Below, piece by piece: positions 4,053 to 61,586 of a DNA stretch of 64,000 nucleotides. The DNA comes from Amphibalanus amphitrite. Its lineage: Eukaryota; Arthropoda; Thecostraca; Balanomorpha; Balanidae. The position numbers and the translations under genes were made by a program. Where the stretch lies: NCBI RefSeq assembly GCF_019059575.1, contig NW_024881532.1, positions 868,001 through 932,000 of the forward strand, read 5' to 3'. The notes beneath the pieces were generated by a model. That model saw only the letters and a program-made list of their open reading frames with translations. It was not told the origin of the DNA and made no database searches. Within the stretch, counting starts at the first letter, position 1. Each line of letters begins with the position of its first letter.

Positions 4053-4212
<160 letters not shown>

Positions 4213-11819: not shown

Positions 11820-11823
11820 TTAA

Positions 11824-12965
11824 CCCGCGCGGGGCTGGGGGGGGTAAATTTTACCCCCTCTCGAATTTTTGCAATATCTCAAAAACGGCGGCGCGCAGCG
11901 CCGCCAAACTTTCAGTACCGTTTCTTACATCAATTTGACACGTTCCCTGAAAATTTGAGTAAAATCCGTCGGAAACTTTTTGAGAAATTGACGTTTTAGT
12001 GACGTCATGTTCGCCATTTTCGCCTCAAAAACGGCAAAATTTCAAACGCCGCTAACATCTTCATTTTTAAAGGAATCAAGACGTAACAAAAAAAGGTTAT
12101 AAGTAATTCTACTTTGTCTATCAAATGGCTATCTCGTTTTTTTGAAAATTTTGGATTTTGGCCTAAAGTTTTTCCAAAAACTGACTTTTTTGGGAAAATA
12201 ATTATAAAATCAAAAATTTTGAGTGTATCGAAAAAATCGGAATGTATGTCAGAGAAGTGGTCTATGTGCACCTACATACCAATTTTTAGAAGAATCGGTT
12301 TAAAAATGTGGGAGTTATTAAAAATTTTATGACGTCACGACAAACAAAAATTTTGAAAAATGATTTTTTGGGAAGTTTTAGACCTCGTGCGGAAACAAAA
12401 ATAGCACCATTCGATACGCCGTGAAAAAAAACTGCAACAGATAGACACCTTTGTAGGCCTTAACAACCAACTTCAAAATTTGACCTCACTTTGTCTTCAG
12501 AGGTGGTCCATATCACTTATTGAGTGTGCCTATTGAATTCTATGAGTAAAATGACCCATAAAACATGTGTCGCACATGCCCTTTTCTATATTTTGTTTTT
12601 TGGTGACCTGACCTGACCTGACCTGACCTTGACCTTGACCTCTGAATGATATTGTATGCAATGAATATTGTCTTGGTAGCCAAGAACACGTTTTGGGCAA
12701 TCAGTCTCAGTCCATGACTCCATTCTTCGGCAACTACGGTGCAAGGCCGATACTGTAGAAACTTGCAATTTGTACCCTTGACCTGACCTTGACCTTGACC
12801 TCAAACTGTAAATAAAGTACATGTTGTTAGTTGTTCGTGATGAGAGCTTTCGATTGGCGTTTGAATTTTCCAAATCGGACCATTAGTTCGGGAGATAACA
12901 GGGGGGTAAAATTTACCCCCCCCCCAGCCCCGCGCGTTCGGCTGGAGACCCCAGCCCCGCGCGGG
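11824..12965. mobile_element. TTAA-flanked hairpin-ended element, copy 1
   Basis: Non-autonomous element between TTAA at 11820-11823 and 12966-12969. The outer inverted repeat is 17 bases (CCCGCGCGGGGCTGGGG). Directly inside the left end is the self-pairing GGGGGTAAA-T-TTTACCCCC. The right end has a second partial terminal repeat, then GGGGGGTAAA-A-TTTACCCCCC. The interior has the CCAAACTTTCAGTACC block, a TGACGTCAT, and two TGACC-repeat arrays (12600-12645 and 12778-12802). TTAA targets and CCC/GGG termini are typical of the piggyBac superfamily; membership is inferred. It shares its left TTAA with the MITE at 11304-11819. Confidence 0.85.
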
Positions 12966-13730
12966 TTAATGCGCGCTGGTTGAGAAGATGGCTGAAGTAA
13001 ACTTAACGTAAATGTTAGTCGAAGCCTAGATGCTGCCACATATGAAAATTTTGTCACATGTTTTCGTTATGCTTAACCCTATAACTGGCGGTGGTGAGGG
13101 GGGGGGCGGCGATAGGATCTCAGCTGTAGTCTTTTTGTTTTGCTCTCGATGGAAAACCACTTGAGCAGGGATTTTGAAGTTTGGTGATTTTTTTTTTACT
13201 ATTTATTGAAAACGTTGTGTCAAAATTGTCAGTTCCTAGCTTGCACATCTAGGAGTTTCCAGGACCAGTTCCTCGGGGACAGCTTTGGTCCAGCTTTGAC
13301 TGCTCAGACATTTGCCGCTAAGCAGCGATTTACAAAGGTATCAAAGCAAATCAAATAAAGGTTTCATCAAAATCATTAGTGTTTTTGATAAGTGTCCTTA
13401 TGATTTTGATAAATTATCAAAATCATAAGTGTCCAATCCAGGTAGTTCATGTTATCTATGTTTACACATATCGGCTCCGTCTACCATTGGTCGTTTCAGG
13501 GTGGTCGAATTATCGCATCGTCAAAGCACATCATCACTAGAATCACCGGACCACGGCCGGTGCCTTTCCTCCCAGTTGGATACTGTGTCGCAGCGCACGC
13601 TGCTCTGCGGCACAGCATCATTCAGGCGCAGTAGCTTACTGCCATCTAGCGAGCGGGATCAGAAGCTTGCGAGTGAGGAAAGCGCTGTGCGCCACTCCGC
13701 GACGCGATGCAGTGGTAAGTACCTTCTCGG

Positions 13731-13873
13731 TAGCGGCGGAACACCTTCAATCAAGGGGGGTACCGCCGACTGTTGGTCCCATTCTTTCCATGTAACGCCC
13801 ATAGGACTAATGTTAAAATGTCAAAATCAAAGGGGGGCACGGTGCCCCGGTGCCCTCCCCGTTCCGCCGCCTA
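13731..13873. mobile_element. 150-bp MITE, family M2, copy 1
   Basis: Termini TAGCGGCGGAAC and GTTCCGCCGCCTA are inverted. The inside holds a G-run, ATTCTTTCCATGTAACGCC and a GGGGCACGGTGCCCC hairpin. Two further copies are at 17096-17245 and 33827-33974. There is no coding capacity. Confidence 0.85.
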
Positions 13874-14234
13874 TGGTGGTACTGACGTGATCCTTTGGCG
13901 GTTTGTTTTTTATTTAAATCATGCATGTCTCATTTCACGAAAGCATATAATTTGGTGCAATGCTCGCTATTACGGCTTGCTGTCTATTGCTAATTTAACC
14001 CAGAACATCTCGCGACTACTCAAACACGCTCAACAATGCAAATTGTAGTAGGTCATTGATACCTATAATAATCCGCTATAATAGTCCGTCCTTTATTACT
14101 ATAAGCCTTTTCTTGCATGATAGTCACACAACTGGTCTTCGCCATGAAAGGTTGTTCCTAAGTGTCGTCTTCTGATAAATGCCTGTATAGGTAAGGTCTG
14201 GTTACATATTATTGTCATGTTGCAGTCTGTTTAA

Positions 14235-14702
14235 AGGGACCCTCCCACCTTAACATTAGATTTGAGTTGAAATAGCCAAAATGGGGTCCCTGGCTCACAA
14301 TTACCGGATTCGACACTCACAACATCGAGAAATGCCTTAAATCGGAAATATTGAATTTCAAAATTGCAGCATTTTGATTCAGAGGGGCTAATGTATAGGA
14401 ATACCCCTCTGAATGTGTGACGTCAGTGCAGATATCTAACGATTTTTAAATGTTTGACTAAAACATTTTGTAGCACGCGGTGGTATACGCTGCTTTCCGC
14501 GCAACAAGTGCCGCACTTTCAAATAAAGTCGCTAGGAACAGCGGAGATCATAAAAGTAAACAAAAGTAAAAGTCTAATATCTTGAAAACCGGTGAATATT
14601 TTTTCGGTGAAATTTGGTAGATATTCGTTTTCGCTCTTTCTGAACCGAGCGACATCACTTTCATGCCAATTCATAAACTTTTTTGAAGGTGGGAGAGTCC
14701 CT
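14235..14702. mobile_element. TTAA-flanked MITE, family M1, copy 2
   Basis: 468 bases between TTAA at 14231-14234 and 14703-14706, with inverted ends AGGGACCCTCCCACCTT and AAGGTGGGAGAGTCCCT. Nearly identical along its length to the copy at 36489-36966. It is non-coding and joined directly to copy 3 through a single shared TTAA. Confidence 0.9.
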
Positions 14703-14706
14703 TTAA

Positions 14707-15205
14707 AGGAACTATCCTACCTTCTAAAATGTTGTTAAAACCAGTTAAATTGTGCCCGACTTTATAGGTTGGATGACCAGGAACACGGTTCTGGCATTTA
14801 TTTTTCATTAAACATCTTAGGCTTCCCATATTCCAAACACAAACTTTCAAATATGTGACGTCACAGCCCAAAATTACCTCCTTCCCCAGGCCACATTACT
14901 GTCATAAAGCTGATTCTTTTTACTCTGTAGGCACCACAACAAAGTTCACAGACCAAGTTTTAAGCGATTTTTCAACGAAAAAACCCATTTAAATCAGCAT
15001 GACTAAACGAGGTGACGTCACACTAACGGTCGCTCCATGTTGAAGATAGGGCCTTGCGCAAGGCCCATTTTCAAATGAAGGGAACGAATTTCTTCAACAC
15101 CAAGAGGCCGCGGGGGTTGCAACCTAGATAGATAGTGGTTTCTGAACCTCGCCGCAAACTTGGCTATCTCAACTCAAACCCCATGTTAAAGGTGGGATAG
15201 TCCCT
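14707..15205. mobile_element. TTAA-flanked MITE, family M1, copy 3
   Basis: 499 bases between TTAA at 14703-14706 (shared with copy 2) and 15206-15209. Ends are AGGAACTATCCTACCTTC and GGTGGGATAGTCCCT. The right 160 bases, from GGGCCTTGCGCAAGGCCC, are the reverse complement of the left part of the copy at 11304-11819. No coding frame. Confidence 0.85.
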
Positions 15206-15539
15206 TTAAAGAACAGTATTGTTTATTCACTGGCTATTGCTTTCAGAGCCTCATTGCTAAATATTGCATGTGTCCGTGAATTGCTGTGCAATGTGCATGT
15301 CTGTTGTATATGTAGCTTGTAGCTAAGTGCCACAGCATATCATTTGTATTCATATATATGCCCCCTTCTGTTTCAGGAAAGGTATTGTTGTCTCAGGGTG
15401 TTTTCTTACAGCGTGCGCAGCGTGCGGCACAAACACTGCGCCTTTCTTTGACATCCGGCGCTTTCATTCACACCTAGTCATACATTCTAGAAATCTCCAG
15501 ACATCAAAGAGAAAGCGTTGCATTGATGCACCTTTATTC

Positions 15540-15920
15540 GGGTCAAAGCTGCTGCGAGCGGCCGGCGCCGGCGGCGATTCGGCTGCGATTCCAGCCGCTC
15601 GGCTCTCTCTCCGGCTCTCGGTGCCCGCGGCCAACCGACGGCGCAAAACTCACAAAGCAATCTTGGCTCAATCTGGCCGGCGACAAGTGGCCCGGCCTCA
15701 CATCGCGCATTGTTTAGCGGCGCGCACCGCCGGCGGTGGTCCACGCGACAGCCGCGGATTAAACAGGCCTCCGAACGGATAGCAAACAATCGGGCCAGCT
15801 TTGAATACAGATGAGGCGCACCGCCGCCGGCGCCACCAGCTGCAAATGAGGAGGGCGGCCTCTCTCAAAAGGGTGCCGCTCGGCTTGGTCTCGTCCCGGG
15901 ACCGTGGAGCGTACAGTGGT
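15540..15920. promoter_or_regulatory. GC-rich island
   Basis: GC-rich stretch with TF-site-like cores in AT-poor spacing (CAAAGCAATC, CGGATTAAACAG, AACAATCGGG, GCAAATGAG). Open frames exist on both strands but none resembles a known protein. Possible enhancer or island between the homeobox and receptor genes. Confidence 0.2.
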
Positions 15921-17095
15921 CCCCACAGGAGTTCCGGCGGCGCCGCGGGCTATTTGGCTCAACAGACCGACTACGCTGGTCACCAGGGCCAGGGTACAAC
16001 AATGATACACTCATTGGACAATGGGCAACAGCGAGGAACCAACAACAATCAAAGCATGGCGCTACAACACAGATCGGTGGGTTGGCTGGTCTACAATTAT
16101 AGGTGCGGCTCACCAATTGTCAACGTTACCAACACATCAACATCTCATTAACAGAACACATCAGTAACTTCAACATGAGATTCAAGCTCCTTCCTTGTAC
16201 TGTGCTAATTGCAATGATTGCATTAATAAGATTATTCCTTTCTTTAACAGCAATATCGGGTAGCCACTACAAGCGCGAAGCATTGCGTAATGTAAGTATT
16301 TTTGTTTGATCTGTTGATCTCTTACTCTCGCAACAGAACAGTTAGCACAGGAAATGGGTGCATGTGTATATGGGTATAGCATGTGATGCAATGCATACAC
16401 TTAGGTACACACCAATTACACCAATAAGAACATTGATTAGCCATAAGTTAAAAAGCGTTTAAGCAAAAACGCTTAAATATTTGTGCAAAATAGCTGGTGC
16501 CGAACACGGTAACACAAACAGCATTGGAAACTCGACTAATCAGACCACTATCATTATGTAATGTTGCCCTCACACTGGTGGGATTTAGCTATTAATTAAA
16601 AATAACTATTCAGCATTAGATTCAAAAGAAAGTGTCAGCCATCATTAAAATACGAGTAAGTTCAACGCTACGAGCATTACGAGCATGAAACACTGATTAT
16701 TTATGCTTTGCAGCAATATCAATGGTGCTTCTCAGCTCTACTTATAGTCGTAATATGCGACCAATTGGCATGTGTTAGATCGCAAAATTAATACAATCAA
16801 CGTTTGATTGGTTGTTTCCGACGAACATGATAGTCATCAAATTGCCGACCGGGGATAATATAATCTGCATTACGTTGATTGACTCATCACACGGACTTCC
16901 TGATACGACATAGTCATTTTTACTGTGTCCCCACATTGCACACGAAAACACGTCAATACACTGCACATGTTTGTGCGTTCACACCAGGTACCGCCCTACG
17001 ACATTTTAAATGCTCATTATCTAGCGGCATCGCTATCTTTCAAACGACCGTATATGGATATTCAATCATGGTTCGGTGCATGAATGTGCGCTCAG
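15921..17095. other. intergenic, no supported gene
   Basis: AT-rich sequence with only short open frames. I see no repeat or motif that stands out. Confidence 0.5.
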
Positions 17096-17245
17096 TAGCG
17101 GCGGAACACCTTCAATTAAGAGGGGGGGGGGGGCACTGCCGACTTGTTGTCCCGTTCTTTCCATGCAACGTTCATAGGGTTAATGTTAAAATGCCAAAAT
17201 CAAAGGGGGCACGGTGCCCCGATGCCCTCCCCGTTCCGCCGCCTA
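17096..17245. mobile_element. 150-bp MITE, family M2, copy 2
   Basis: Same termini (TAGCGGCGGAAC, GTTCCGCCGCCTA) and interior as the element at 13731-13873, with a longer G-run. It lies about 200 bases past the 3' end of the GABA-B receptor coding region and may lie in its 3' UTR. Confidence 0.85.
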
Positions 17246-17449
17246 TGTGTGCGTTGTCTGCATGGAAGTGGAATGGAGGGTGAAAGGTCCCGAAAACGTG
17301 TACTCATGTGTTCATCATGACGTCAGCTAACAATTTAAATGCATGTATGCATCCCATTCTCCCCATCCAGCCAATCCTACGTATGCTCACATGCCCTGTA
17401 AAACGTCACACCACCTGATTCCAGCAGGACACGCCCTCGCCTGAAATCC

Positions 17450-20400
17450 CTACAGATAGCTCTCGCTGGGGTCGAAGTCGCCCGTGGCCGGGTTGCGCGG
17501 CCCCTTCGTGTAGGCGATGATGCCCAGGACACTGATCCCCGGTGGCACGGGACTGGCGTTTGGAGTGGTGGCTGGTTTTGCGTCCAGGCCATCCTGCTGA
17601 CTGGGTACGGAGCTCTGCACCAGTGGTGCAGTACTGGGCACCAGTGGTGCCGGGCTCTGAACCAGTGGTACAGGACTGGACACCAGTGGTGTCGGACTCT
17701 GCACCACTGGTACGGGACTCTGCACCAATGGAACTGGACTAGGCTGGTTAGACACAGAATTGGCCGGCTTAGAAACCTGACTCGGCTGATTGCTCACAGG
17801 GCTGCACGGAGTTGTGGTTGGGAGCGACTGATTAGACAGCTGGCTGTTGACATTGGTCAGACTGGACTGATTGGTCAGCGGACTGGATTGGTTGGGCGCC
17901 GGGCTCGGCTGAAGGGGCTCCCGTTCGGATTCCGCTGCCGCCGACACTGGCTCGGGGCTCGGCGAGCTGCCCTTGCTGCCCTCGCCGCGACGAGGGACGA
18001 CGATACTGAAACACGGTCCGTCCGGGGTCTCCGGCCGGGGCGAGGGGGACCGAGGTGTTGGACTGTATCGGCCACCGCCCTCCCCCGGTGGCGGAGTGGC
18101 GCAGACGACCGTCACCCTCGGTCGGCGGTCGGCGCTCGGACGGCGGTCGGCGCTCGGTCTTCGGTCGGCGCTCGGGCGGCGCGACGCGGACGGGCCGGCG
18201 CCCGAGCCACCCAGCGGCTGACCGGGGTCCAACATGCGAGTGGCGGCCACCAGGCCCAGGGCGGGGGCTGCTACCACAGCTCCGCCGGTGGTGCGAGCGG
18301 CGGCCCGCTCCTGCAGCTTCTGACGGAGCAGGCGGACCTTTTCCTCCTTCTGCCGAACGGAAAGTTAGATGAGTTAGATGTCGCTCGAGAGCTGAATGAA
18401 AGAGACTCCGATCGAAATTGGCATTGAATGCACACGGGGGAGAAGTGCGCAAGCTTAGATGATGAGGTATAATTAATATTACAACTTTTTGTTATTTTCA
18501 AGGCAAATATTGGAATCGACGGAGCATCTCTACTCACCTCGGCGATGAGTCTCTGCAGCTCGTCGTTTTCGGAGAGCAGTTTTCTGTAGCGTTCCTCCTC
18601 CTCTCGACTAGGCATCTCCTCAGCCGGGTCCACCCGCTCACGGGGATTACGGATCACGTCCATGATCTGCGAGCGCGCAGTGTAGCAGGTTAATGGCTGG
18701 GTTCCGAAATGACGTTCCCGCTATACCAAGCATAACATTTATAAAATGTGAGGATCCATTTACGGATTAGACGTTTCCGGCTTTTCATTTTGATAAGATA
18801 TGGGCAGCTATAAATGTTCTAATGATTTCCAATAGGAGGTAAACAAATATTGATAAATTAGAAAAAAAATCAATCACATCCCTAATCGCTTGCGGCATGC
18901 GTCAGTTCGTACTTTTGGGAAGAAGATGAGCCCCATGGAGATGTAGCAACAGAAGACGATGGCCAGTGCGACGAAGGCGAAGCTGGCGTCCTGCTGGCTG
19001 CCGATAACCATGGAGACGGGTGCCGTGATCAGACACAGCACCACCACGTTGTAGATGCTCATGCCGACCAGTCGCGAGTCGTTGATCTCCTTCAGTTTGA
19101 TACTGCGCGTCTCGTAGGCCAGGAAGAGACCGAAGATGAGCAGAAGACCCTTGAAGCCGTACAATATTCCTGCCGGAAGCGGGTTGGGAAGTTGAGGCAT
19201 AGGTTTGAGTGACACATTCATGTGTTCATGTATGTCATCACGTGTTTTTATGCTTATCGATTCGGTTGGTGAGGCTAAGAATGCGAGACACGCTTCCCTC
19301 TTTACTGAACCAGTTGGTGGGATGACAGTTAAGAACTGCCGTTCACATTGCCCCTCTTACCGAGCCAGGTGGTGAGGTTGCGGCAGTAGCAATGCTCCAG
19401 CAGCGGCTTGAACTTGATGTCCTCCTGCGTGTTGTGCGGGTCCTCCAGCGGGAAGCTCTCGATGTCCCTGTACAGCGGGTCCATGATGTGCCAGGTGAGT
19501 AGGAAGGCCACGTCCACTAGCAGCAGGCAGCCCACCAGGATGTACAGACGCCGCGGCTGCACCTTTATCTGAGGGGAAAATCGCTTGATATGTGAACCTG
19601 ACTGGAAAATATACGGACATAACAACGAGGAAGCACACCTAACCTTCTTGTAGAGACGAACCAAGGCAATACTTGTACATTTTGTGTTCCTTCACTATGG
19701 TGTTTGCTGAAGCAGCTAGATCGAGTCTTGACAGAAGCAAATAGACAATTAAGGAGAAATTAAGCACGTCGTTATTGTTCAAAGTGAATAGCATTGTTCG
19801 GCAACGTTCTGCACTGTAACATCACCACTAATATACCTGTGTTCTTACTGCCATGCGTGATCCACAACTCTTCTGCATTTCTCGGGATGTTTTTCTCACC
19901 TTCTCCTCGGCCTTAGTGGCGAACCGGTGCACGCGCCAGATCTTGGTGAACATGGCGCCGAAGCTGAGTGTGAAGCCGACGCTGAGCGTCCAGGTGCGCG
20001 CCTGACACACCACGTGGTAGTGGTGTTCGGGCACGAAGCGTCCGTCCAGGCCGAGCAGCACCACCGACAGCAGACAGAGGCAGATGCCGACCAGCGTCAT
20101 GTCGTTACCCACCGGGTGAGAGTGGCGGATCAGCCTGCCGTCGGACAGGGGTATCGTGAAGCAGGTGAATAAGGTGCCCGATGTGCCGCTTTGGATGGTG
20201 ACAGCAAAGACGAGTGGGCGAGGGAGGATTATTGCTTTGTCTCGATTGTCTGCTTTAGGCCGTCCTATATGTGGTCGCCGGTCCTGTTTATTTCTCGGTG
20301 ACAGGCCGAATGGTCAGCAAATTACTGTCGGAGAATTTCATTACTTATTTGAGCTCTGCATAAATACGAAAGCAAAGAGTTGAACCTCACTAAGATGTGA

Positions 20401-25223: not shown

Positions 25224-26110
25224 CTGAAACCGACAATAAACGTCAACGTGCTGTCACGAAGAGCTTCAATCACATAGCAAGGGAGAGTGACTGCAGATAG
25301 GTGACAATAGCCATGCCTGCCTCGTTAAACCTTCTGGAGTGAAGTCAATCTTTTCATTATTCTAATCTAATGTAATTATTACCTATAAGTAAACCAGCCT
25401 TCACTTTCGACCATCACATCTCTTCAGACTTCAATGCAGCATTGCAGTATCATTTTGCACTCACATGACACTTCCCATCTCATCTATAGACACAAGCAAC
25501 GAGCGACACACGACACTTCCTGGTCATCGCGCCTCTCGGCGTCGCCTCGTACCCCCTGTTCCTCCCCTCCCCCACCGCCGCCGCCGCCGCCGAGGCATCG
25601 CCCGAGGCGAGTTACCATCTCATGTTCTCCACCAATCAGCGTTGAGTATCAGCTGGCTCCAGACGACCGCATCTCATGATCGTGCGTAGACGAGTGACAG
25701 CAGTCGCAATCACTCGATTGCTGAGCAGTGGTGACTGGTCAGTGGACGCTCCCTATTGGACTAGTGCAGTGCTTTGGTGAGTGGTGGGTGTGGATCTTAT
25801 CTTAGTGAATTGTGAAGGTTGGTGACAGTGTGATGAATATATAGTGATAATCTTCCGCTCGGGATTTTCACGAACATCATGTTTTGAATTCGGTGATGAT
25901 GCGACGGCAACAGCCAACAAGCAATCACTCTGGACCATCTCTGAACCCTTGGCCGAGTTCCGAGACGAGCCACGGGTCGACAATTGGATTCTTCACTTCA
26001 GCGTCTTCATCTTGGTAACGTACCGAAAGGCGTCAGCCTTCCTGCATGCTACATTGACATCCTGCCTGCATGGTAACTATGTTCTCAGTGTTTCGGTTTG
26101 GGTTAGATTG

Positions 26111-26125
26111 AAAGAGAAAGAGAGA

Positions 26126-26188
<63 letters not shown>

Positions 26189-26240
26189 GGAGAGAGGGAC
26201 AGGGAGAGAGAGAGAGAGGGAGAGGAAGACAGAGAGAGGA
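26111..26240. repeat. (GA)n microsatellite
   Basis: About 130 bases dominated by GA dinucleotides, with GGGAGA variants near the right end. It lies roughly 900 bases upstream of the first coding exon of the GABA-B receptor. Open frames across it are compositional. Confidence 0.95.
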
Positions 26241-26334
26241 GTGAGGACTGAAAGACATTCACAGAGACAAAGGAAGAAGGCCAAGGAGAGATAGAGGGAC
26301 TGGGGAGAGCTCTTCCTAGTCCATCTCCCTTTCC

Positions 26335-26823: not shown

Positions 26824-27552
26824 CCCTCGCCCGTATAGAAGGGGGTCGAACGGACCCCCTCCCCTCGGTTTTTCACGAATAACTCGCGTAAAAAGCGGCC
26901 GATCTTGACGAAACTTTCAGTACCCTCGCGTTAATCAATTCTACACCTCTCCTAAAAGTAATGACCCTGATCCAAATGACCTTTGACCTGTGACCTACTG
27001 TTCGAGACCATGTTCGGCCGGAATCGCGATTCGGTGTGCACGTGTCGTGTCGGCTCGCATTAGCCGCGCGTTTGCAGTCTTTTCGTGGTTTCAAGCGTTC
27101 AAACATAAGCAGTTTTGGTACCTTCGTAATATGTTACGAAGCTGTCAGAGGCGGTTGACACCTACTACGAATACCCGACAGGACCCCTACTGGTTGACCT
27201 GACCTGACCCGACCTCGCCTAAATGCATGAAGACATCATCTGTGATCAAAACTAACATGATATTCGTGATCAGTACCTGCAGGAAACCTCCATAGCAGCA
27301 ACGCCTTACGACGTTCTAACAGGTCCCGATTTTTCCGACTTTTGAGTCATTGACCTGACCTTGAAGGTCAATCGATGACCTAGGACCTTAAAAGTGGGTG
27401 TTGTCGGCTTTCTCTCGTCACGGGCAACACGCTCGTTTTTTCCGCGAAGCTCTATGCTCGATCAGGGGCGAAACGGCAGGGGGGGGGGGTTCCAACGGCC
27501 CCCCCCCGCCCTTTTACGTTCACGGCTGGCAAAACACCAATACGGGCGAGGG
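26824..27552. mobile_element. TTAA-flanked hairpin-ended element, copy 2
   Basis: 729 bases between TTAA at 26820-26823 and 27553-27556. The termini are CCCTCGCCCGTAT and its complement. The left end carries GGGGGTC-GAACG-GACCCCC; the right end has a spacer, then a G-run/C-run block. The interior has GACGAAACTTTCAGTACC and several TGACCT repeats (26977-26997, 27195-27215, 27350-27372). It belongs to the CCCTCGCC subfamily with the copy at 51287. No transposase frame. Confidence 0.8.
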
Positions 27553-36966: not shown

Positions 36967-36971
36967 TTAAA

Positions 36972-41774: not shown

Positions 41775-43374
41775 CCCGCGACCTGGTGGGGGGGGGCTAT
41801 TTTTTGCACCCCCCCTCCAGACTTTTCGATATATCTCCAGAACCGCTGCGCCGATCGTCACCAAACTTTCAGTACCCTCCCGGACATCAATTTTACACAT
41901 TGTGACCAAAATTTTTTTCCAAAAGCTATGATAGGTTGGCCGGAAATGACGTCAGAGTGACGTCATGTTCTGCCGTTTTCGACCCAAAAAGGTTTCGCGG
42001 GAAGAGCTGTCAGGCCTATAGCATTGCAAATACAGCAAAATGATAAAGACATAAAAGCTGTAGATTTTACAGGGCTACAAAACTGCTATCTCGGATTTTG
42101 AAATTTTTGGATTTTGACCCCCAAAAATCAAAAAATAGATTTTTTGGATATAATAATCGAAAAATCCAAGAAGTTTTTTGAACTTCGCAAAAACCGGAAT
42201 ATATGTGATAGTCCTTACCGTCTTCCATCCACATACGAAATTTGAGATTGATACCTCTTTTTTGGCGAAGTTATAGCGAAAAAACTGTTCAAAATTGATG
42301 ACGTCAAATTTTCAAACTCAATTTTTAGCAATTCTAGACCCCGTAGCGCAAAACGAAGACCACCATTAGACTCCCCGTGACGAGCTGCATCGAATCAATA
42401 CCCATTTTATGCAAAACTATCAACTTAAAAATTTGACCTTTTTTGGCCTGACCTTGACCTGACCTTGACCTGAACTTCACCAGAACGTGACCTAAGCCGT
42501 ACCTGATAGTCTTATAACCAACACCATTTAGTTGGAAATGAAAAATTGGCCATAAAACATGTATCACACAACCTTTGTAAAGTTGGGCTCATGTGACCTG
42601 ACCTGTGACCCTTGATGACCTGACCTGTGACCTGACCTGGTATTGCCAGCCCAGCAAACATGCCCACATGGGTCCCATATGGGGTGAACATGGGCCAGAT
42701 GGGCCCACGTGGGACATGGGCTACAGATGGGCTACCCATATGGGCCCCATATGGGATAAAAATGGGCCAGATGGGCCAAACGCATGCATGGGCTGGAGAT
42801 GGGCATCCCATGTGGGTCCCATATGGGGTGAACATGGGCCAGATGGGCCCACGTGGGACATGGGCTACAGATGGGCTACCCATATGGGTCCCATGTGGGC
42901 GCCGCGTGGGTCCCATATGGGGCCTACGTGGGCTGACCCATATGGGTCCCACGTGTCACCCACTGCCATTCCCATGTGGGACCCATATGGAAGAGGTGGG
43001 GGGCCCATGTGGGCCCCATATGGGAACCATGTGGGCATGTTTGCTGGGAGTGACCTCTAATAGCAACATATCTACTAGGCAACTGACGCCCTACCGCTGA
43101 TTCTCGACAAAATGCGTTTTCCTCGGTGTTATAGCGCATTCCCTAGAAGACCCGTGAACGGTGAAACATTTCATCTTTGACCTGACCTGTGACGCCATCG
43201 GTGACCCCGAGGTCAATGAAATTTGATTTCCTTCGACAAATTTGACAGGCCTTTCGAACGCCGTTTGAATTTTGCGGATCCGTCCAGTAGTTTCGGAGAT
43301 ACGAGGGGGGGGGGCAAAAAATAGCCCCCCCCCCCGCCAGGTCGTGTTATAAACAGACCCCACCAGGGCGCGGG
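41775..43374. mobile_element. TTAA-flanked hairpin-ended element, copy 3
   Basis: 1,600 bases between TTAA at 41771-41774 and 43375-43378. The left end CCCGCGACCTGGTGG abuts GGGGGGGGCTATTTTTTGCA; the right end has CCCGCGCCCTGGTGGGGTCT, a TATAACACG spacer, a second terminal-repeat copy, then the G/C block (as read from the right edge). The interior shares ACCAAACTTTCAGTACCC, TGACGTCATGTTC, AAACCGGAATATATGTGATAG and CATAAAACATGTRTCAC with the copies at 11824 and 60409. Extra length comes from the embedded minisatellite at 42652-43045. TGACC arrays lie at 42452-42475 and 42594-42640. Confidence 0.85.
42652..43045. repeat. minisatellite of CCCATATGGG / CCCACGTGGG palindromes
   Basis: About 390 bases of irregular units in which 10-base palindromes (CCCATATGGG, CCCACGTGGG, CCCATGTGGG) recur every 15-25 bases, joined by GGGCCAGATGGGC spacers. 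A larger duplication is visible: about 80 bases from GGTCCCATATGGGGTGAACA are repeated at 42672 and 42817. The strand symmetry keeps both strands open for about 150 codons; I do not call a gene. Confidence 0.9.
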
Positions 43375-43378
43375 TTAA

Positions 43379-46260: not shown

Positions 46261-46339
46261 TGCTATCATCGGCTGGCCGGAGAAGAGCCGGCCCGGATGA
46301 ATGAGGAAGTGTGGGATAGACAATGCTCCAAGACGGCGC

Positions 46340-50990: not shown

Positions 50991-51286
50991 CTGCCGATCA
51001 AAAGCAGAGGTCGCCCATTAAGCTTTTTATCGAGACACCTCATTCATTTTACCTAAATAGACATTACCTGAATGACGTTTTTTTCCACCAACGATATCCA
51101 ATATGTTTCGTTGTACGCGACTTGCAGCATCAAGCTGACTTTGTGACATTATGGGTCACCAGTATGGCAACATACAGTGTAGCCATTACACCCCTGTAAT
51201 GTGTTTAGTGTAAATGGCTCACTATTATTTGTAAAAACACTTACGCCGTTACCGTGGCTCAGCATTCACAGATCACAATATCTTAA

Positions 51287-52223
51287 CCCTCGCCCATGTA
51301 GGGGGGGGGGTTGGTGCAACCCCCCCTGAGGTTTTTCGGAAATAGTGCAAAAACGGCGGCGCGCAACGCCGCCAAATTTTGGGTACCTTATGGGGCAAAC
51401 GTTGCGCATCTTTTGATAAAAAAAAAATTGACCGGGTCATGTCAGGTCACGGAGTTATGACGTCACAAAGGGAACAGCCTCCGGCCGGATTTTCACAAAC
51501 TGAGTGCCAACGCCCGAGGTTTCCTGCCGGTGGTACGGACATCGGTTGATGGATCGTGATGAAACTTCCCATGCATGTTGGGGCAAGTATTGGCTATCAT
51601 ATGGTATAAAAAACTTGACCGGGTCAGGTCAGGTCACGGAGCTATGACGTCACAAGAGGAACAGCGTCCGGTACTATTTTTGAAAAGCGCCCGAACCACT
51701 ATTTTGCTAATTCTTGTCACCTCAATGGGAATATGCAGCAATATTAGCTTCTATAGGGAGCAAATGGACCTTCCAAATCCAAAAATACACTCAGATTTCA
51801 AAAATTTAAATTTTGATTTTTCGAATTTCTGCCGCCGACTGTGACCTTGCCGACTTCCGGCGCTCCCAACGCGCCATTTTTAGAGCTAGGGAAACGAAAT
51901 ACATACCAAACGATAGAGAATTGATCAAGGAACACGATAGTGAAGGTTTCAAGTCGATATCTCCCACCGTTTTGCCGCAATCGCCGCGGAAAGTTGAAAA
52001 AAGTATATTTTTCCGAAAATTTGACCTTTGACCGGTCAAAAGTAGGTCAAATGTTGACCTAGGACCAAAAAATATACCACCAATCGCGAGATCTCGGCGA
52101 GAGCAATCCGTTGGTCTTTTCCGCTAAGCTCTACGACGCTCCGTTTTCAAACGCCAAGGGGGGTCGCACCAACCCCCCCCCCTGCATGGGCGAAGGTGGC
52201 AGATCGCTGTTTACGGGCGAGGG
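51287..52223. mobile_element. TTAA-flanked hairpin-ended element, copy 4
   Basis: 937 bases between TTAA at 51283-51286 and 52224-52227. The left end CCCTCGCCCATGTAG abuts GGGGGGTTG-GTG-CAACCCCCC. Read inward, the right end is CCCTCGCCCGTAAAC, a spacer of about 18 bases, a second copy TTCGCCCATGCA, then a G-run/C-run block with GGGTTGGTGCGACCC. The interior repeats a ~165-base unit (GACCGGGTCAGGTCAGGTCACGGAG at about 51430 and 51615). Subfamily of the 26824 copy. It lies about 300 bases upstream of the known PDZ exons, probably in an intron. Confidence 0.82.
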
Positions 52224-52227
52224 TTAA

Positions 52228-55200
52228 TCCACATGGCCCATATCTACGAATAATAACAACGAGGACTGGTTGTGGTAATTGTCTGGTTCTTACCCCTGGG
52301 GAAGCACAGCCAATGGTAATTCCCACTCTCACCTGCCTCCAACATTAGAATGACATCACATTAAATCACGAGAGAACGCTCGCACCTGGCTTTCAGAGTA
52401 TCACTCCCACCTACGCCGTTTTTTATGCTTATAAAGCATGAATAGTCGGATAGTTTTCGCCGACATAACGGAGAAGTCGCGTGCTCTTTGATCCGCTAGA
52501 TGTGATTCAGAATGTAATTTCCTTTTTGATCTTATTCTCTTGGAAGAAGTAACGGGGAATAAAACGCAGATTTGTCCAAAACCCATCCGAATAGTGCTCA
52601 GATGTCCCGTAAATGCATGTCTTTATGTGGTCAAGAACTGCCACAATTCGACTTAATGCATTTGGTGTACAAGATAAACGGATCGAAGCCAGTTTTGTGA
52701 ATGCGCTGCAATTGCAGTATTGTATAAGAAGGCAATTGGGAAAACATGGATTGAGCGGCCTTGTGTCATTTGAAATGCTGAGAATAAGGACCGTGTGTTA
52801 TGTCGTGCATGAAAAAAGATGAAGGTTATATCGTATGCGAGCTAGCGTAAGATTAGAAAGCACAGTGCACAGCCTATGTCAAAATCCCAACTGTGAAAAC
52901 TTTGTAGCTGCATATCGGTCAGGTATCAGATAAAGAAATTTAATGGCTGTGGCCGTTAATTTCATTAAGCTTTTTCTAAACGTTTGATAAATACTCCGTC
53001 TTCTTGGACGATTTTCGTAATCAAACGATCTGCCGTTGCCTTACCACAGCATTATATAAAGGCATGACGGGCATGACGTTATGCCCTGCTTATGGCGAAT
53101 GGTTTCGAATCAGGTTGATCAGAATGAAACACTTGTGCAATGTGCAGCACTTTGCAGTGCCAGTGACTGTCTTCTTTATTAGGTTTCAGACGACTATTGC
53201 GCTAAGGTAAGTCGCTAAGTCTTGGCGCTAATCCGGTGGCATTTTTGACAGTAGAGCTCATAAATATGTTGCCAAGTCAAAAAATATGAGTCATGATTTA
53301 AATGGTTAACTTTAATGATAACGAACAGCTTTTATGTAGACCAACTGTCCCTGCAAAATGATAAGTTCTTTGCATGGCTCAGTATAAACATAACCTACCC
53401 TTCCTCATGAATTTTACCTAACTAATGTGGTGCATATTCACACGCAAATACTTATATTTATTTAATTAGCAGCCGTCCTTTTGGAACATTCTTTTCCATG
53501 TGTGCATAAACAACACGCACACATGCAATTAGTTTTTTTTCTCCTGCCGTGTTGTTTTCCTTTCCGGTCAGTGGGTCAGCTGATCTCATCTCATCTTCCG
53601 TCGGCACCGTGTCGAGCTTTCCAGCTGATTTGTTTCTGGTCACGATCCCACTGGGCTCCCTGCGCGCACTTTCCACTCTGAGGTAGCGCGGCTCGCGTGG
53701 AGTGTGTGTCCGCTTCATCTTTCTGTGACAGAACGGGCGCACACACCCGGAGGCCTGTGCTACTTTGGGCCAGCAAGTGCGTGCAAATTACTCTCGAGAT
53801 AAGTAGCTTTCGCAGCGGCAGGTGCGAGCAAGTGTGCCGCGTGATTTGATATCCCATCCGTCTCTGCTCCGCCGCGGGCTCCGACAGTGGAGGAAGGAGC
53901 TCAGCTCGCGGTGTGGAACCTCTCCCAGTGACCCGGCTGTTAGATGAAGCGATTACGCCGCGGACGGAGCGTAAGCAAACAGCCCGTACATACAGCACGC
54001 CAACTGCTTGTAAACAGTGCCGGAATTCCAGTGCTGGATCTTTTTTTCTAGATCTTTTAGTTTCCCGGTGGTTATACCCGGTGCACCGCAGCTGTTATTT
54101 TTAACGGCGCCGTTTTTGGTGTGGCATGTTTACTCGAGGGTGGACGATTCGATTTGTATGGCCGGCTGTGCTCAGTGACTGCAGTTACTCCTCGCCTCTC
54201 CGTCTGGTGTATTGGGCCGTATTGTAGTCGGAAACTACCTTGTGGAACGGTCCAGTCCACAGATCCCGCCTCGTTTGTGGCACACGGCCCTTCGTAGCGC
54301 GCCGCTCGGGCGACACATTTGTTCTCGGTCCAAAAAACTCTCTTCTTTCCAGATAAACAGAGCCAAGCAATAAACTGCGAGGGAATTCCGGCCGAGATTG
54401 TCGGAGCCGCGTGGCCGGCGGTGAGCGCCGAGCCTGTCCTCGATTTGGCCTCTGCCAGGATCCGCCTCCATAGCCGGCTTGGCGGGCGTCCCACCTACTT
54501 AGCGGGCGGGCGTCGGCCCCATCCCCCGGCCGGTCCGGCCCCCGCCCGCGGCGGGCCGCCCACTGACCGCAGTCGCCGTCCCCCGCCCTCCTCAGAGCGC
54601 ACACTGCCCTCATTGACGTCATGTCATCCGCTGTCCACTGGTGACTGGTTAGCCCTCAGTTATCTCGGCCATCCCGGCCATTTGCATCAGGTACCGGCCT
54701 CTCCCCACCCCTTTCAGCGTCGAATACCGCGTTCCTTCCGCGGCCCCTCCCTCTGCTCCCTCCTAGCGGTCTGGACCTCATACCGGTAGGGTAATGCTAC
54801 CCGGAAGATGGGGACTGAGAAGGTATGATAGGATGAAGCAACAGCGGCGAGGCAAAGGGATGAAAACGGGACGGTGACTCAGAATAGCTGTAAATGTCAT
54901 GAATATACCGGAAATAGGTAAGATGTAAGTCATGGTGAACTTTTCTTTTGATGTAGATAAGGATACATGTAAAATGATCTACTTATGAGTGATGCTATAT
55001 ATAATAGAGGATATGTATCGGATTATGATGTAATTGGAAGAGGAGTAGAAAACAAACAGGCAAATCCTGTATTGTTCAATGCGGCAGCTGTTCTATTACA
55101 GACTGTCGCTGGGTGGTTTGGAGACTACAACACAGGAAAAGAACGTACCTAACCAGGAACTACAACGCGACAACAAGATCATAACAGGAACTTCGCCAGC

Positions 55201-56424
55201 GCCAAAAATGTCACAGAAACAGCATTGTGTAAAAAGTATCGAAGGTTATGGGACTTAGTAGATGGATTGGCCTGTAAATCATTCCCAGTGTCGCTATCAC
55301 TGAGCATTTTACGGACGCGCTGCTGACGCGCTGAGCGGCTCGCTGCTCTAACTGGAGGCGGCACGTTCCTCCGAGCGGCTCTGGGATGACCACCCTGACG
55401 GGCCTCCCATTCGAGCCACAACACACACGACAGCGAAAGTTGCCCAATTGGACGGCATGAATGCGGTCGGCCGGCCACTGACCAGGTGGCCTCGTCGGGA
55501 AAAAATGAACGAAACTTGGCGCATGTCTGCTGCGATTTTCTGAATTGCTGCGCATGAAGGACATGTTACGCCCTTGTGTTTGGCTATTTTTAAGTTAACC
55601 ATGTATTCCTAAAAAATATGTAAGAATCATACGATGTGTCCGGCTTTCATAAAGCTCATCGGACATGGAATGGTCACAGCTTCAGCGAGAAAGTTGTTAT
55701 CGATTTTTCCACTGAAAGCTCCTGGCCGGGAGCTGCCGTGGAGAGCTGGCTCGCGTCCGGCTTCCGCCGTCGCCGCGGGGCCGTCCAGCGGCGATGGGGC
55801 CTCGATAGGCGAGCGGATGCTACTCTCCGTATCTTCAGCCGACCAGACGTCTGTCGATCTCAGAAATCCACCCAAAGATGAGCACCACCCCACACACGCC
55901 ACCCCGTCGCCGCGTGCCGCACGGGCGGGTCTCGAGCTGCGGCCAGCTCACTTGGAATGAATTGCGGCGCAGTGGCTGCTCCTCTTCCGGCAACAGAGAC
56001 GACCGCGCCAGACCCGACCCGCCGGTCGCACGTGCAAACAGCTACGAGATCGACCGGTCCCCGGCGCCTCCGGGCGCAACGGTGGCGCAGTGGCCGCGTG
56101 CAGGGTCTGAACGGCGCGCAGGACGGTGCAGGCCTCACTGCAATGTTGTGAAGGATGCCCTGGAGCTGGTCGGAGGAGAGCGCATAACAAGGCTGGCTGA
56201 ATGAGAGATCATAACAAGGCAGGCGAGGATGGGAGGAGCGGCTTTAGCCTCGACCAAATGTGGCCCATTGAACTTCGTAGCCATCGTATCATTGAACTTC
56301 GCAGCCATCGTGTTCTAGACTGGATTTTACAGAGTTTTGATATCGTGACAGAGTTTTGGTATTTTCTGAGATTAGGCTCTTTATTCCTGTTGGGGCAATG
56401 GTCGGGCTGCTCATATTCGCTTCA
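52228..56424. other. no supported gene; GC-rich islands
   Basis: AT-rich to 53.5 kb, then GC-rich islands at about 54.27-54.79 kb (with a TGACGTCA at 54614-54621) and 55.70-56.18 kb. Long overlapping frames in these islands follow from GC content and match nothing I know. They may include 5' exons or promoters of the PDZ gene. Confidence 0.4.
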
Positions 56425-56645
56425 GCGGTGGCGGTGGTGGTGACTATGGCTGTGGTGGTGGCGGTGGCGGTGGTGGCGGTGGTGGTGGCGGTGGTGGTGG
56501 CGGTGGCGGTGGCGATGACTTTGACGGTGGCGGTGGCGGTGGCGGTGGCGGTGGCGGTGGCGGTGGCGGCGGTGGCGGTGGCGGCGGTGGCGGTGGCGGC
56601 GGCGGTGGCGGTGGCGGTGGCGGTGGCGGCGGTGGCGATGGCGGA
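56425..56645. repeat. (GGTGGC)n hexanucleotide repeat
   Basis: About 220 bases of GGTGGC units with GGTGGT, GGCGGC and GATGAC interruptions. Open frames across it encode Val-Ala, His-Arg or poly-Pro runs and are not genes. Confidence 0.95.
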
Positions 56646-57099
56646 AGCCGGTCGGGATCTGGGTCAAATCTCACGGTAACAGCGAGCCGGGTCGCCCGGC
56701 GGCGGTGGCGGTCTCGCACGCAGCGAGGGATCGGACCGTCCAGAGCCGGGGACCCGGTCCGGTCCGGTCGGTTCGGTCCGGTTCGTCCGGTCCGGTCCGG
56801 GTGGTGGTGAGCTGAACCCCGGGATCGGACGGCCCGGAACACCCCGGAACACTGGGGAACTGTGTCGATACGGAGGCTCAGCCAGCAGCCGGAACGGAGT
56901 CCGACATCCGGGAGGGGCTCGGACCGCGAGAGGCGCGTCAAGCCGATCAGTCACACCCGTCCGTTCCGCCGAAATGGGACAGAGGAGCCGATAGACCCGT
57001 CACGTCGGCAGATTGAGACGGATCGGCGCCCGGCGATCCGCTGGTATCCCGAAGATGACGTATTTCTGTGTGTTGACCAGCAAACTGGTCAGATCGTGA

Positions 57100-58050
57100 C
57101 GACCGAGCGTGAGATGCATAAACCATGAGCGGCCGCCGAGGTTATGGGAGTCTACTGGCCCGGTGTTCGAGTGAACTCTGGGCCTCCGCCGGTGAAGGCC
57201 GTGGGGCCGGCGGACAGCCGCTCTGCCCCGAGCGGCATCCCCGCCCCTCCCCTCGTGACCCGATCGGGCGGTCTACCCCAGTTGGCCGCGGCACCGCTAG
57301 CCGGCGCCGTGGCCGCCCCGCTGCGCTGCCCCCGTCGGCGCTCCCCGGCCGGCCGGCTCGTGCAGGCCAGGCCGGCTGACCGGTGCAGTCGGTATGCGGA
57401 ACTCAGCCGACCACCCCCGCCTGCACGCTGCCTCTGCCCCGCTCCTCCAAGCCAGCTGCGCCTCGGCGGAGACTTTCGGTCCATTGGGGCCAACTACGAG
57501 TGACGCGGAACGGAACGCTCTACCTTGGGACAAGACAGGGCAGAACATCTTCGAATAAAAAAGACAGGATGGAAGGGAAGAGAGGAGAGACGCCCGCGCC
57601 GATCGAGGCTGGAGGCTATGCCGCCGGGGGCGCACCACGCCGTTCGCAGACAACGGTCCATTCCTCACCGTGCGCGCGTGGCAACCGGCCGGCCGACCCA
57701 CTCGGACCCAGACGCCTTTCCGCGAACTGGGAGCGTGCGGCGCCGCCTCGCGCCGGCGGCCATCGACATGTCCGGTCACGTGACCTGACGCAGTGGGTCC
57801 GCGCCGTGCGTCTCCGTCTCCGTCTCCGTCTCCGTCTCCGTCTCCGTCTCCGTCTCCGTCTCCGTCTCCGTCTCCGTCTCCGTCTTCGTCTCCGTCGTCT
57901 CCACGTGGGAGTGCGGACGGTGCCCCGAGGACAGTGTGTGTTCCAGATCCGCTGGGCATCACGATCCGCGCGGCAACGAACACTGTCACGTGATTGCCGG
58001 CGGCGGTCGTGATGTGGGTCACGTGACGCGTCACCGGGCTATCGGCCGCT
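57100..58050. promoter_or_regulatory. GC-rich island with GTCACGTGAC sites
   Basis: CpG-rich stretch containing the 10-base palindrome GTCACGTGAC at 57775-57784 and 58018-58027 and a one-base variant at 57985-57994. This sequence is the CLEAR/E-box type bound by MiT/TFE and USF bHLH-zip factors. No TATA or known exon is seen; likely promoter or enhancer of an unidentified transcript. Confidence 0.35.
57809..57901. repeat. (CGTCTC)n hexanucleotide repeat
   Basis: About fifteen copies of CGTCTC, nearly uninterrupted, with a T change near the right end. It lies between two GTCACGTGAC sites. Confidence 0.95.
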
Positions 58051-58649
58051 GGACGGGCGGACCCTCTGTGTTTGTGCTTATATGGCGGTGATACATAGTA
58101 AGACTGGTTGTGACTTGGAGAGTGTCCTTCCGATAGTGTTGACATTTGTTTTTGCAGTTGGACTCGGTGTGACATCTGCCGCTGTCGTCGCTGTCGTTTT
58201 TGTGTAGAATATGTCTGATTGTTTGCCAACACCTTCAGTTTATATGCACGTTTATGTAAATAGCAGCACCTTGTTTGTGTTTCGGGGCCATGGTGTAGCG
58301 ACAACTGAGTGATTGTATTGTAGCTACATGGTGTTTAACATTCTATCTAGTTTGCACCGGGATTAACCCGTCCTTCAGAAACGTTACATAAAGCATTCAC
58401 AACCCACAGGTCCAAGGAAATAATGATGACACCTCTTGTTTCGTTCTTTGGGACATCCCCGATCACAACGGATCAGCACCGGCCCCAAATGGACCCCGGT
58501 TCGCTGATCCTCCGCGGGGTGTTAGCATAATGTGACAGGCTCGGAGTGTGGCACTGGCGTGGGTCGTGTTGTGGGAACAGGCCGGCCTCTGGTGGTATTC
58601 TGCCCAGAGGTCGCCAGATGAAGATCGCCGGGCGAGCAGCCACCCGCGC

Positions 58650-58735
58650 CGGGAGCGTCTCCAGCCGCGCCGAGAGCGTCTCCAGCCGCGCCGAGAGCGT
58701 CTCCAGCCGCGCCGAGAACGTCTCCAGCCGCGCGC
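58650..58735. repeat. 21-bp tandem repeat, four copies
   Basis: Four near-identical units of GAGAGCGTCTCCAGCCGCGCC. The 21-base period keeps several frames open. No spacers, so not a CRISPR array. Confidence 0.9.
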
Positions 58736-59637
58736 CGAATATTCATTGGACATCGAGCGGCACTGCCGAGCTCATTTGGTGTCAATGCTATGCCGATGGC
58801 TTGGTGGGCCACTTTCGGTGGATCCTGAGGCCCGTTAAGGGCCTCCAAAAGAATGCGAACATGAAAAGCCACTAACAATGGATGGTGCAATGAAATGTAG
58901 TTGTTTATCCTGTGAAGAAAGGAAACAAGTTTGATGCTGTTGTTCGCATTCAAATATTATGCAAATGCGTTTGGTAAAATGTTGATCTTCAAACTTGAAT
59001 GCTTTCACAATATCAGTTGACTGAATTATTATATAACACTCGTCCCGCCCATCAGCTTTTGAAGAAAATCCACTCAAGGGGAATATTCTATTGCGTGCGG
59101 TTTCTAAGAACCTGCAGATACCCCATACCTGTTCCTCTTCGCTGCAGGAATCTGACCGCCGCCTACCGCTCCCCGCGGGAACGCCTGCCGCTCCCTGCGG
59201 GAGTCTGACCGCCATGCTCCGGTGCCATTGTGGGCCGACCACCGATGGCCGCTCCTTCCGCAGCGCGGCCACATCGCTCGTGCGCTATCAAAGCGGCCAG
59301 CGACAGCGCACGCGGGCGACCGCGCCGGCGCGGGGGTCGGGAAGTAGCGCAGGTGCGGCTGCGTGCCGTGCCGCGCGCCGATCGTCGAGTCGGCCCTCTC
59401 CGCTCCTCGCCGGCCGGCGCGCCCGGTTTCTCCCTGCTCGGCGGCACCGGCGGGCCGTCCATGCCGGCAGCCATGGGCGCCGGGTAAACGGACCTTTTAA
59501 AGGTCAGCCGATCGGGAATAGGTCAAGCAGATGCCGGACCGGACTGGCGGCGGCCGGTGAAAGGCGATGGACCACCACCGGCATGCGGCCGGCGCGGCGG
59601 GCACGGCGCAGCGCGTGCGCACGATGCGTCACGGTCC

Positions 59638-59710
59638 GTCACGTGACGTCACGACTCGTCAGCTGACGTCACGCCGTGTCGCTTAACGGAGGCATCCACC
59701 GCGTCACGTG
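59638..59710. promoter_or_regulatory. dense CRE and E-box cluster
   Basis: Within 73 bases: GTCACGTGAC at 59638-59647, TGACGTCA at 59644-59651 (overlapping it), CAGCTG at about 59661, TGACGTCA at 59664-59671, and GTCACGTG at 59703-59710. It lies about 165 bases upstream of the minus-strand ATG at 59474. A promoter for that frame is an inference. Confidence 0.5.
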
Positions 59711-60408
59711 GTAAAGGCAGCTGAAGGGACCTCGAGAAATGTGACTTTTTTGTCCTACGAATGCCGTCGTGGTGTACGAGACGTGTGGCGTCGAAATTAG
59801 ATGGAGCCTGTTCTGTTAGCTTTACCGAGAACTGCGGATAGCTCGGTTACCTTGATCGAAGCTATTTATATTATTAAGATTCCAAATGATGACAAATGAG
59901 GCTACAGTCTTGACAAGTCAAACATACCCTGATGTAGCACGAGGCATCCCATCGGTCAGTTATGGCTAAACAGCTGGCATTCACGTTTTAGGAGCGCCTA
60001 ACCAGGTCAATAGATATCTTACTTGTCAGACTCGAAGGCTTCCTCTCATATCAGACACAGTTGAATCACGTGGTGATAAATCAAGCATTTACTGTAAAAA
60101 TAGAAATTCGGCATTTGTTGACTCATCCCGAGAAGATGGAAAAACTTCCGTCGGGTAATGCGAAGAAACTCCAGCCAGCCTCGCGTGAGAAGTGATTTGT
60201 CTCTCGGTCGCGGGAGAAAGCTGCTTCCATGGAAGTTCGTCGACCTTCAAGTCATTCGACGCCGGCAATCGCTGTTTTATGAGGCGATTAGTCCCTCAGC
60301 GCTGGGTCATGTTCAGTGGAAACAGTACGCAGTCTTGGGTCGGCTTTTCTTTTAATTGATGGCACATGGCATTAACAGATATGTGATGACAGGCTGTGCT
60401 GCTCTTAA

Positions 60409-61582
60409 CCCGCGCCCCACTGGGGGGGGCTATTTATAGCCCCCCCTCCCGTTTTTCTGCAATAACTTCCAAACCGCTTAACGTATCAACGCCAAACTTT
60501 CAGTACCTTTGGCTGCATCAATTTGACACCTTGTGTCAAAATTTGAACTTCGTACCTACCATAGGTCGGCCGGAAATGACGTCAGAGTGACGTCATGTTC
60601 GGCCGATTTCGACGCAAAACATTGAACCACGGCAATCGCTCCCAAGAGCTCAGTTTTTAAGCTAGATCCAATTTCTTTGCATGAGAGGACTCATAATAGA
60701 CTGCGCTATGAAACTGCTATCTCGGATTTTCGAAATTTTGAAAATTTCGAATATTTTATATAATAAAATTCAAAATTTATATTTTTACATTTTTTTCAGT
60801 TTTTTTTTTACTTTTCGAAAAAACCGGAATATATGTGATAGAACGCATTATTATGACTAACTCTAGCAAGTTTTAGCTAAATATCTTCAAAAATGGCCAA
60901 GTTATACGCATTATTGCAAAAAATTAACAATCATTATTTTTTCAAATCAATTTTTCAGCACGAATTTGACACCGTACGCCAATATAAATAGCACCATCGT
61001 GTTCCTGAGCCCAAACTGCATCCAATAGACACCTTTTTTGTTGAAAAATTTTAACTTCAAAATTTGACCTTTTTTGACCTGAAAGTGACCTGACCCAAGC
61101 TAAATTTGACTCAAAATGACCTTGAATGACACAGACGACATCAAATTCGGAATGTTTGGCCAAAATGGACCATAAAACATGTGTCACGTGACCGACGGAT
61201 GAAATAATATTTTCGTGACCTGTGATGACCTGACCTTGACCTGAAAATCAAAGTACAAGTTTGGTACCCTCAAAATACCTAGAGCATCTGTTCACGAGTG
61301 TGTGAACCAAAAATGAGCCTGATCTGACTTGTAGGACGGCGGCCAGAGCCCAAAACGAGAAGAAGCCAAAATGCTAATAATTTTTACTTTGACCTGACCT
61401 GTGACGTCATCGGTGACCTCGAGGTCAATGAAATTAGGTTTCGCTCGACAGTTTTTCCGGGGCTATCAGACGCCGTTTGAATTTTGACGATCGGCCCAGT
61501 AGTTTCGGAGTTAGGAGGGGGGCTATGAATAGCCCCCCCCCCCAGTAGGGCGTGTTATACGCAGACCCCAGTGGGGCGCGGG
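60409..61582. mobile_element. TTAA-flanked hairpin-ended element, copy 5
   Basis: 1,174 bases between TTAA at 60405-60408 and 61583-61586. The left end CCCGCGCCCCACT abuts GGGGGGCTAT-TT-ATAGCCCCCC. The right end, read inward, is CCCGCGCCCCACTGGGGTCT, TATAACACG, a second terminal copy, then GGGGGGCTAT-TC-ATAGCCCCCC. Interior blocks match the 41775 copy closely (AAACCGGAATATATGTGATAG, GGCCGGAAATGACGTCAGAG). TGACC arrays occur at 61063-61120, 61216-61245 and 61390-61432. No transposase frame. Confidence 0.86.
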
Positions 61583-61586
61583 TTAA

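Follow-up and report, generated by a model that had tools for sequence, protein, structure and literature searches.

The ends of the piggyBac transposon of Trichoplusia ni (T. ni) have a described asymmetry: the minimal ends measure 35 and 63 bp (LE35/RE63), the left one carrying a box and a palindrome and the right one a box, a 17-bp insertion, a repeated box and a palindrome, with right-end bp 34-63 repeating left-end bp 7-35 at an offset of 27 (Chen et al., 2020; PMC7351741). According to passages of the same paper, C-terminal domains bind the palindrome as a dimer, a second, inner dimer is proposed at the right end, and the arrangement is found puzzling; transposition goes down by about half when 5 bases are added or the inner box is randomised, whereas activity rises about 2-fold with a tandem left end (PMC7351741). 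Here, we analyzed a stretch of 64,000 nucleotides (the window) from contig NW_024881532.1 (C35) of Amphibalanus amphitrite, in which five elements flanked by TTAA (E1 to E5) share this layout. They are very probably T. ni-type piggyBac miniature inverted-repeat transposable elements (MITEs), moved in trans by the transposases of full-length relatives. A previous sequence-only reading of the window had located the five elements and knew of no described family with such ends, a view superseded by the published passages on T. ni.

The likeness to T. ni piggyBac, as far as those passages describe it, extends to the TTAA target, the CCC tips, the order of the units and the register (27 bp there, 26-27 bp here); in addition, the frames of the full-length relatives match the T. 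ni transposase over that of piggyBat and have a similar C-terminal Cys/His pattern. In contrast, the letters of the box and the palindrome differ, the latter being here a G-run/C-run palindrome of variable run length, and the Amphibalanus elements have thousands of tips, most copies seen are gene-less, and the outer right tip is not necessarily like the left one. piggyBat of Myotis lucifugus shares the TTAA target, the asymmetric ends, the units of box and palindrome and the synapsis of the ends by two dimers, but in the passages describing it the left end carries the repeated palindromes and the right end has none (PMC11707139; preprint PMC13405395), and its transposase is a weaker match here. 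CMITE of Acropora corals also has TTAA and piggyBac-type tips, is gene-less, and includes one family apparently derived from a full-length piggyBac-like element, whereas its length is about 100 bp, its interior is conserved from family to family, and the passages on it mention no doubled right end (PMC2872659). In the open-access literature, as judged by titles and the starts of abstracts, no description of such a layout in MITEs or of such a register across families was found.

The window elements and their parts are the following.

11824-12965, + strand: E1, non-autonomous piggyBac-type element, 1142 bp, TTAA-flanked
11824-11858, + strand: E1 left (single) end, terminal box adjoining the block (11837-11858)
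12901-12965, - strand: E1 right (doubled) end, with outer box 12950-12965, inner box 12923-12938 and block 12901-12925
26824-27552, + strand: E2, non-autonomous piggyBac-type element, 729 bp, an old copy without an internal stretch of about 167 bp present in its relatives
27479-27552, - strand: E2 right end, with outer box, decayed inner box near 27510-27525 and block 27479-27507
41775-43374, + strand: E3, non-autonomous piggyBac-type element, 1600 bp including a nested insert of about 400 bp
42650-43048, no strand assigned: E3 nested insert, 399 bp, with inverted ends CCCAGCAAACATG/CATGTTTGCTGGG, missing from L057
43305-43374, - strand: E3 right (doubled) end, with outer box, inner box 43332-43348 and block 43305-43335
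51287-52223, + strand: E4, non-autonomous piggyBac-type element, 937 bp
51287-51687, + strand: E4 left end and subterminal part, from base 15 on common to the full-length elements of L039/L041 (80-82%)
51917-52223, - strand: E4 right subterminal part and doubled end, with inner box 52181-52196 (offset 27) and block 52158-52182
60409-61582, + strand: E5, non-autonomous piggyBac-type element, 1174 bp
60409-60446, + strand: E5 left (single) end, with block 60422-60446 (GGGGGGGCTATTTATAGCCCCCCC)
61517-61582, - strand: E5 right (doubled) end, with outer box 61566-61582, inner box 61540-61556 and block 61517-61543

All five elements have an exact TTAA on both sides and CCC on both tips. Within the 64 kb, TTAACCCGCG/TTAACCCTCG is found at five places, each the start of one of E1-E5, and the mirror words at five others, each an end. 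From its tip inward, every left end consists of a box of 13-17 bases directly adjoining a block in which a G-run and a C-run enclose a short core; E1, E4 and E5 have a near-perfect palindrome here (E2 and E3 are not scored as palindromes). At the right end, the tip box is followed by a spacer, another box and a block of the left-end kind, clearly so in E1, E3, E4 and E5; in E2 the inner box is decayed. Across the 32 single ends, the block always begins between bases 14 and 18, the upper value being the cutoff by which an end was classed as single. The inner box of the right end is a copy of the left tip, to which it is in some cases closer than to the outer tip of its own end: in E4, it matches the left tip in 11 of 12 letters and its own outer tip in 6 of 11. 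It lies at offset 27 in E1 (12/12 letters matching) and at offset 26 in E3 and E5 (11/12 in each).

The spacer between the boxes had been given as 18-30 bases; a spacer is present, but the spacing proved nearly fixed, at an offset of 26-27. In the 19 elements for which both ends could be assembled, we matched the left tip against the right end at every offset from 12 to 45, keeping out eight further E5 copies (L002-L008, L063) as E5 repeats. The best offset was 27 in 13 elements, 26 in four, 28 in one and 17 in one (E2), and the block starts of the two ends differ by 26-28 in 19/19. A shuffle test at offset 26-27 gave values below 0.001 for 15 of the 19, the exceptions being L028 (0.002), the MITE nested in L043 (0.0055), E2 (0.089) and the L005 element with offset 28 (0.677). 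Because some of these elements are related (L039 and L046 form one family, E3 and L057 another, and L028, L041b and L043 are close to one another), about 15 of the 19 are independent in letters. When all doubled ends in the window and the loci were matched against themselves, the best offset was 26 or 27 in 33/37, 28 in two, 19 in one and 17 in one. For E4, all 40 scored copies have an inverted match to the left unit at exactly 27 bp from the right tip.

This layout is neither local nor due to chance. The 807.6-Mb assembly (2,644 contigs) was searched with a single-end pattern (box, 5 free bases, G-run, core, C-run) and a doubled pattern in which the block lies 20-34 bases past the box. On one strand of the whole assembly, the strict patterns gave 4,929 single-end and 7,924 doubled-end matches, and reversed control patterns gave none in 807 Mb. 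Counts are those of one strand, as the other-strand counts are inflated by variable run length and were not used, and the patterns are strict, so that for instance the E1 box and the E3 left tip escape them. An intermediate control, with the block 16-24 bases past the box, found 106 matches; with so few between two peaks, the single and doubled distances are bimodal. This control replaced a pattern with a gap of 35-64 (7,585 forward matches), which was unfit for the purpose because it re-finds doubled ends owing to long G-runs.

On contig C1, pairing joined the doubled-pattern list with the gap 35-64 list and accepted partners at 0.5-2.5 kb. Where both strands were listed, 22 of 24 single tips face an inward doubled tip at that distance, as do 29/36 of all testable single tips, so that the doubled end at TTAA, which genome-wide members might have lacked, is present in most of those sampled. 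No single tip lies opposite another single tip (0/44), and 4/64 doubled tips lie opposite another doubled tip, both pairs overlapping an ordinary single-doubled element. The doubled-pattern list alone paired 21/24 single tips below 1.842 Mb and 27/44 over all tips, against a mean of 0.97 and a maximum of 7 pairs of 44 for randomly placed tips.

The five elements had been taken as one five-member family. Sequence comparison led us to reject a single family in favor of several related ones: E1, E3 and E5 are about 70-82% alike in parts. At least 40 full-length E4 copies are 98-100% identical (40 scored of 2,243 candidates) and at least 40 full-length E5 copies 96-100% identical (40 scored of 3,828), the window copy included in both cases. 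The E4 and E5 copies are dispersed over many contigs, each with its own tips, and a satellite or segmental-repeat origin was rejected. E1 has a 91% relative (1,082 aligned bases, stopping at the locus end) that begins at TTAA in L041. That E2 is old shows in its longer matches elsewhere, which are 80-90% alike; its two-piece relatives have about 167 bp more in between. L057 is an uninterrupted relative of E3, 92-94% identical, from which the target duplication of the E3 insert is at most 2 bp (AG); the insert itself contains many ATGGGCC/CCCATATGGG words. Runs of TGACCTGACCT(T) words, at 12600-12640, 12780-12805, 42430-42640 and 61060-61250, are common to the interiors of otherwise different families.

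No window copy carries a transposase, as had been noted: a PF13843 profile search found 116 transposase places genome-wide, none of them on C35. We read the DNA of 47 of these places (30 in L009-L038 and 17 more in L039-L056, L056 repeating the L035 place) and found full-length relatives with the same right end, which the sequence-only reading had proposed to look for. The element of L039 (2443-6417) measures 3967 bp between its TTAAs and has a second copy in L041 (1555-5531), 99% identical over 3,985 bp; relative to L046, the transposase frame is broken in both. The L046 element (115-4085), of the same family, has 3963 bp between TTAAs and an open frame of 674 residues from stop to stop. Outside this family, the L049 element (633-5355) is 4715 bp long with a 666-residue open frame, and that of L043 (710-6682) is 5965 bp long with a 683-residue frame (673 from ATG) and another MITE (1176-2170) nested between the frame and the doubled end. 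L048 has such a frame too, with the doubled end alone found and a TTAA that reads differently there, and in L047 the single end alone is visible. In L046, two left ends of its family stand tip to tip at 111-118 with one TTAA in common.

In the five elements with both ends seen (L039, L041, L043, L046, L049), the doubled end lies downstream of the transposase gene and the single end upstream. The doubled end of T. ni piggyBac also lies downstream of its gene, a further likeness in orientation. A close sequence link to a full-length relative was found for E4, which is 80-82% identical to L039/L041 over about 370-390 bases on the left and 85-86% identical over about 270 bases on the right (E4 bases 631-896).

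The frames of L039, L041 and L043 match PF13843 by hmmscan and those of L046 and L049 by the genome search, and L043, L046, L048 and L049 have DDD-type motifs and a C-terminal CxxC..CxxC..CxxH..CxxC pattern. The only relatives found in PDB were 6x67 (T. ni) and 9c0f (piggyBat). L043 (2e-66), L046 (2.2e-78), L036 (1e-74) and L049 (1.3e-56) match 6x67 far better than 9c0f; L036 has a T. ni-like frame with ends not seen. For L026, L015, L035, L044 and L019, piggyBat is the better match, and the tips beside these frames do not run into a G/C block within the 30-60 bases shown. In a midpoint-rooted tree of 23 frames from the 48 loci, L036, L043, L046, L048 and L049 form one group with support of 100/100. 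The Cys/His pattern is present in 5/5 of this group and in 0/18 of the others, whose C-terminus may in some cases be truncated; a first, narrower pattern detected it in 2/5 of the group.

Full-length elements of the CCCATTAGTGCCC type (L022-L032) were considered as partners and rejected, their tips having no block in the 30 bases shown; a further point against them is that one of their number, L026, resembles piggyBat more. One such element in L028 (667-3347, with a 604-aa open frame) sits inside a CCCGCGCCC-type MITE (7-3825), and its 2,681-bp span is the same in 8/10 other loci of L022-L032, a recurrence that suggests a recent burst of these elements. Another G-run/C-run stretch, following GCGGATCCAGG, was seen near transposase loci (L040 5681-5715, L042 5759-5794, L055 1063-1099); it has no TTAACCC tip alongside and looks like a different repeat.

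Insertion at TTAA can be followed at a pair of related loci. An uninterrupted element in L058 has a single TTAA at its bases 261-264, and its relative in L041 is broken exactly at that TTAA by a full-length element and a MITE with a TTAA in common, after which it resumes. As judged from the alignment, L058 is a single-TTAA empty site for elements related to E1-E5. A third element in L041, of the E1 type, starts at another host TTAA, with one base differing beside the site and its far end outside the locus.

The piggyBac-type mobilisation proposed by the sequence-only reading is thus supported by the TTAA sites, the CCC tips, the same-ended relatives with transposase frames and the empty site for related elements. 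In the mechanism that we favor, the transposases of full-length relatives in the same genome would move E1-E5 in trans by cut-and-paste at TTAA. The box beside the tip would be the site of the transposase DNA-binding domain, and the G-run/C-run palindrome that of a dimer of C-terminal cysteine-rich domains. The left end would thus offer one box-palindrome unit at the tip, and the right end an extra terminal box followed by a complete left-type unit 26-27 bp further in, which would let two dimers bind in phase, a catalytic one outside and a structural one inside. The binding partners, the inner dimer and mobilisation in trans are assigned by analogy with the T. ni work, and the unequal binding sites suspected earlier at the two ends would fit published passages on that system (PMC7351741).

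Several observations weigh against this reading. E4 is not a plain deletion of the L046 family, the two being 80-86% alike and only at the ends, and close full-length relatives of E1, E2, E3 and E5 were not found among the 47/116 transposase places read. The single tip of L049 starts with CCT rather than CCC, and under the strict patterns 7/36 testable single tips on C1 have no doubled partner. The inner box of the window E2 is no better than chance, its best match being at offset 17; the E2-type tip at two other places on C1 has a clear inner box. Finally, among nine E5 copies (L001-L008, L063), near-identical and with a steady C-run of 6-8 across the core, the G-run beside the box varies from 8 to 14 on the left and from 9 to 17 on the right, which shifts the palindrome centre relative to the tip and would not be predicted by a strict geometry; slippage, homopolymer assembly error or a tolerance in the palindrome-tip distance may account for it.

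The TTAA target is not confined to piggyBac, and E1-E5 could belong to another TTAA-targeting superfamily (e.g., Kolobok) and be piggyBac-like at the tips only. Although no search aimed at Kolobok was made, this is extremely improbable, as the same-ended relatives carry PF13843 frames matching 6x67 at 2e-66, 2.2e-78 and 1.3e-56, with no other TTAACCC tip between frame and ends in L046 and L049.

The other two alternatives accept piggyBac and concern the doubled end itself. It could be a neutral relic of one ancestor, its spacing retained by common descent rather than by function; the kinship among the families and the youth of the E4 and E5 copies would suit such a history. Nevertheless, the box letters differ widely among families while the offset remains 26-28 in 18/19 elements, and passages on T. 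ni report the same offset of 27 with unrelated box letters and the loss of about half of transposition upon adding 5 bases or randomising the inner box (PMC7351741), making a neutral relic quite unlikely. Alternatively, the two-box right end could restrain activity rather than aid synapsis, as do the subterminal inhibitory sequences reported in passages on piggyBat (PMC11707139). This is also unlikely, if slightly less so, because the inner box of T. ni adds activity and its tandem left end is about 2-fold more active, according to the passages on that system (PMC7351741), and the transposases of the full-length relatives are closer to that of T. ni than to that of piggyBat.

The reading of E1-E5 as MITEs moved in trans by piggyBac transposases makes them ordinary in kind: they are T. 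ni-type piggyBac MITEs with full-length relatives in the same genome. They are of mild interest since the end asymmetry and the 27-bp register recur with quite different letters. About 15 families with different end letters keep the arrangement and the 26-27 bp register, with two exceptions in 19 elements, and this natural variation suggests that asymmetry and phase are functional. We give an even chance to the idea that the T. ni-type clade follows a general rule, by which one end alone has an extra terminal box in a fixed 27-bp register with a complete left-type unit, kept although the end letters changed and tied to one type of C-terminal domain; it would be a rule of asymmetric synapsis, akin to the 12/23 rule and readable from genome sequence alone. 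With its thousands of tips, this genome makes many end pairs and candidate enzymes available for testing. In annotation work, T. ni-type piggyBac MITEs can be recognised by a single-unit end facing a doubled end whose offset is 27 bp, and the same signature helps to pair them with their transposases.

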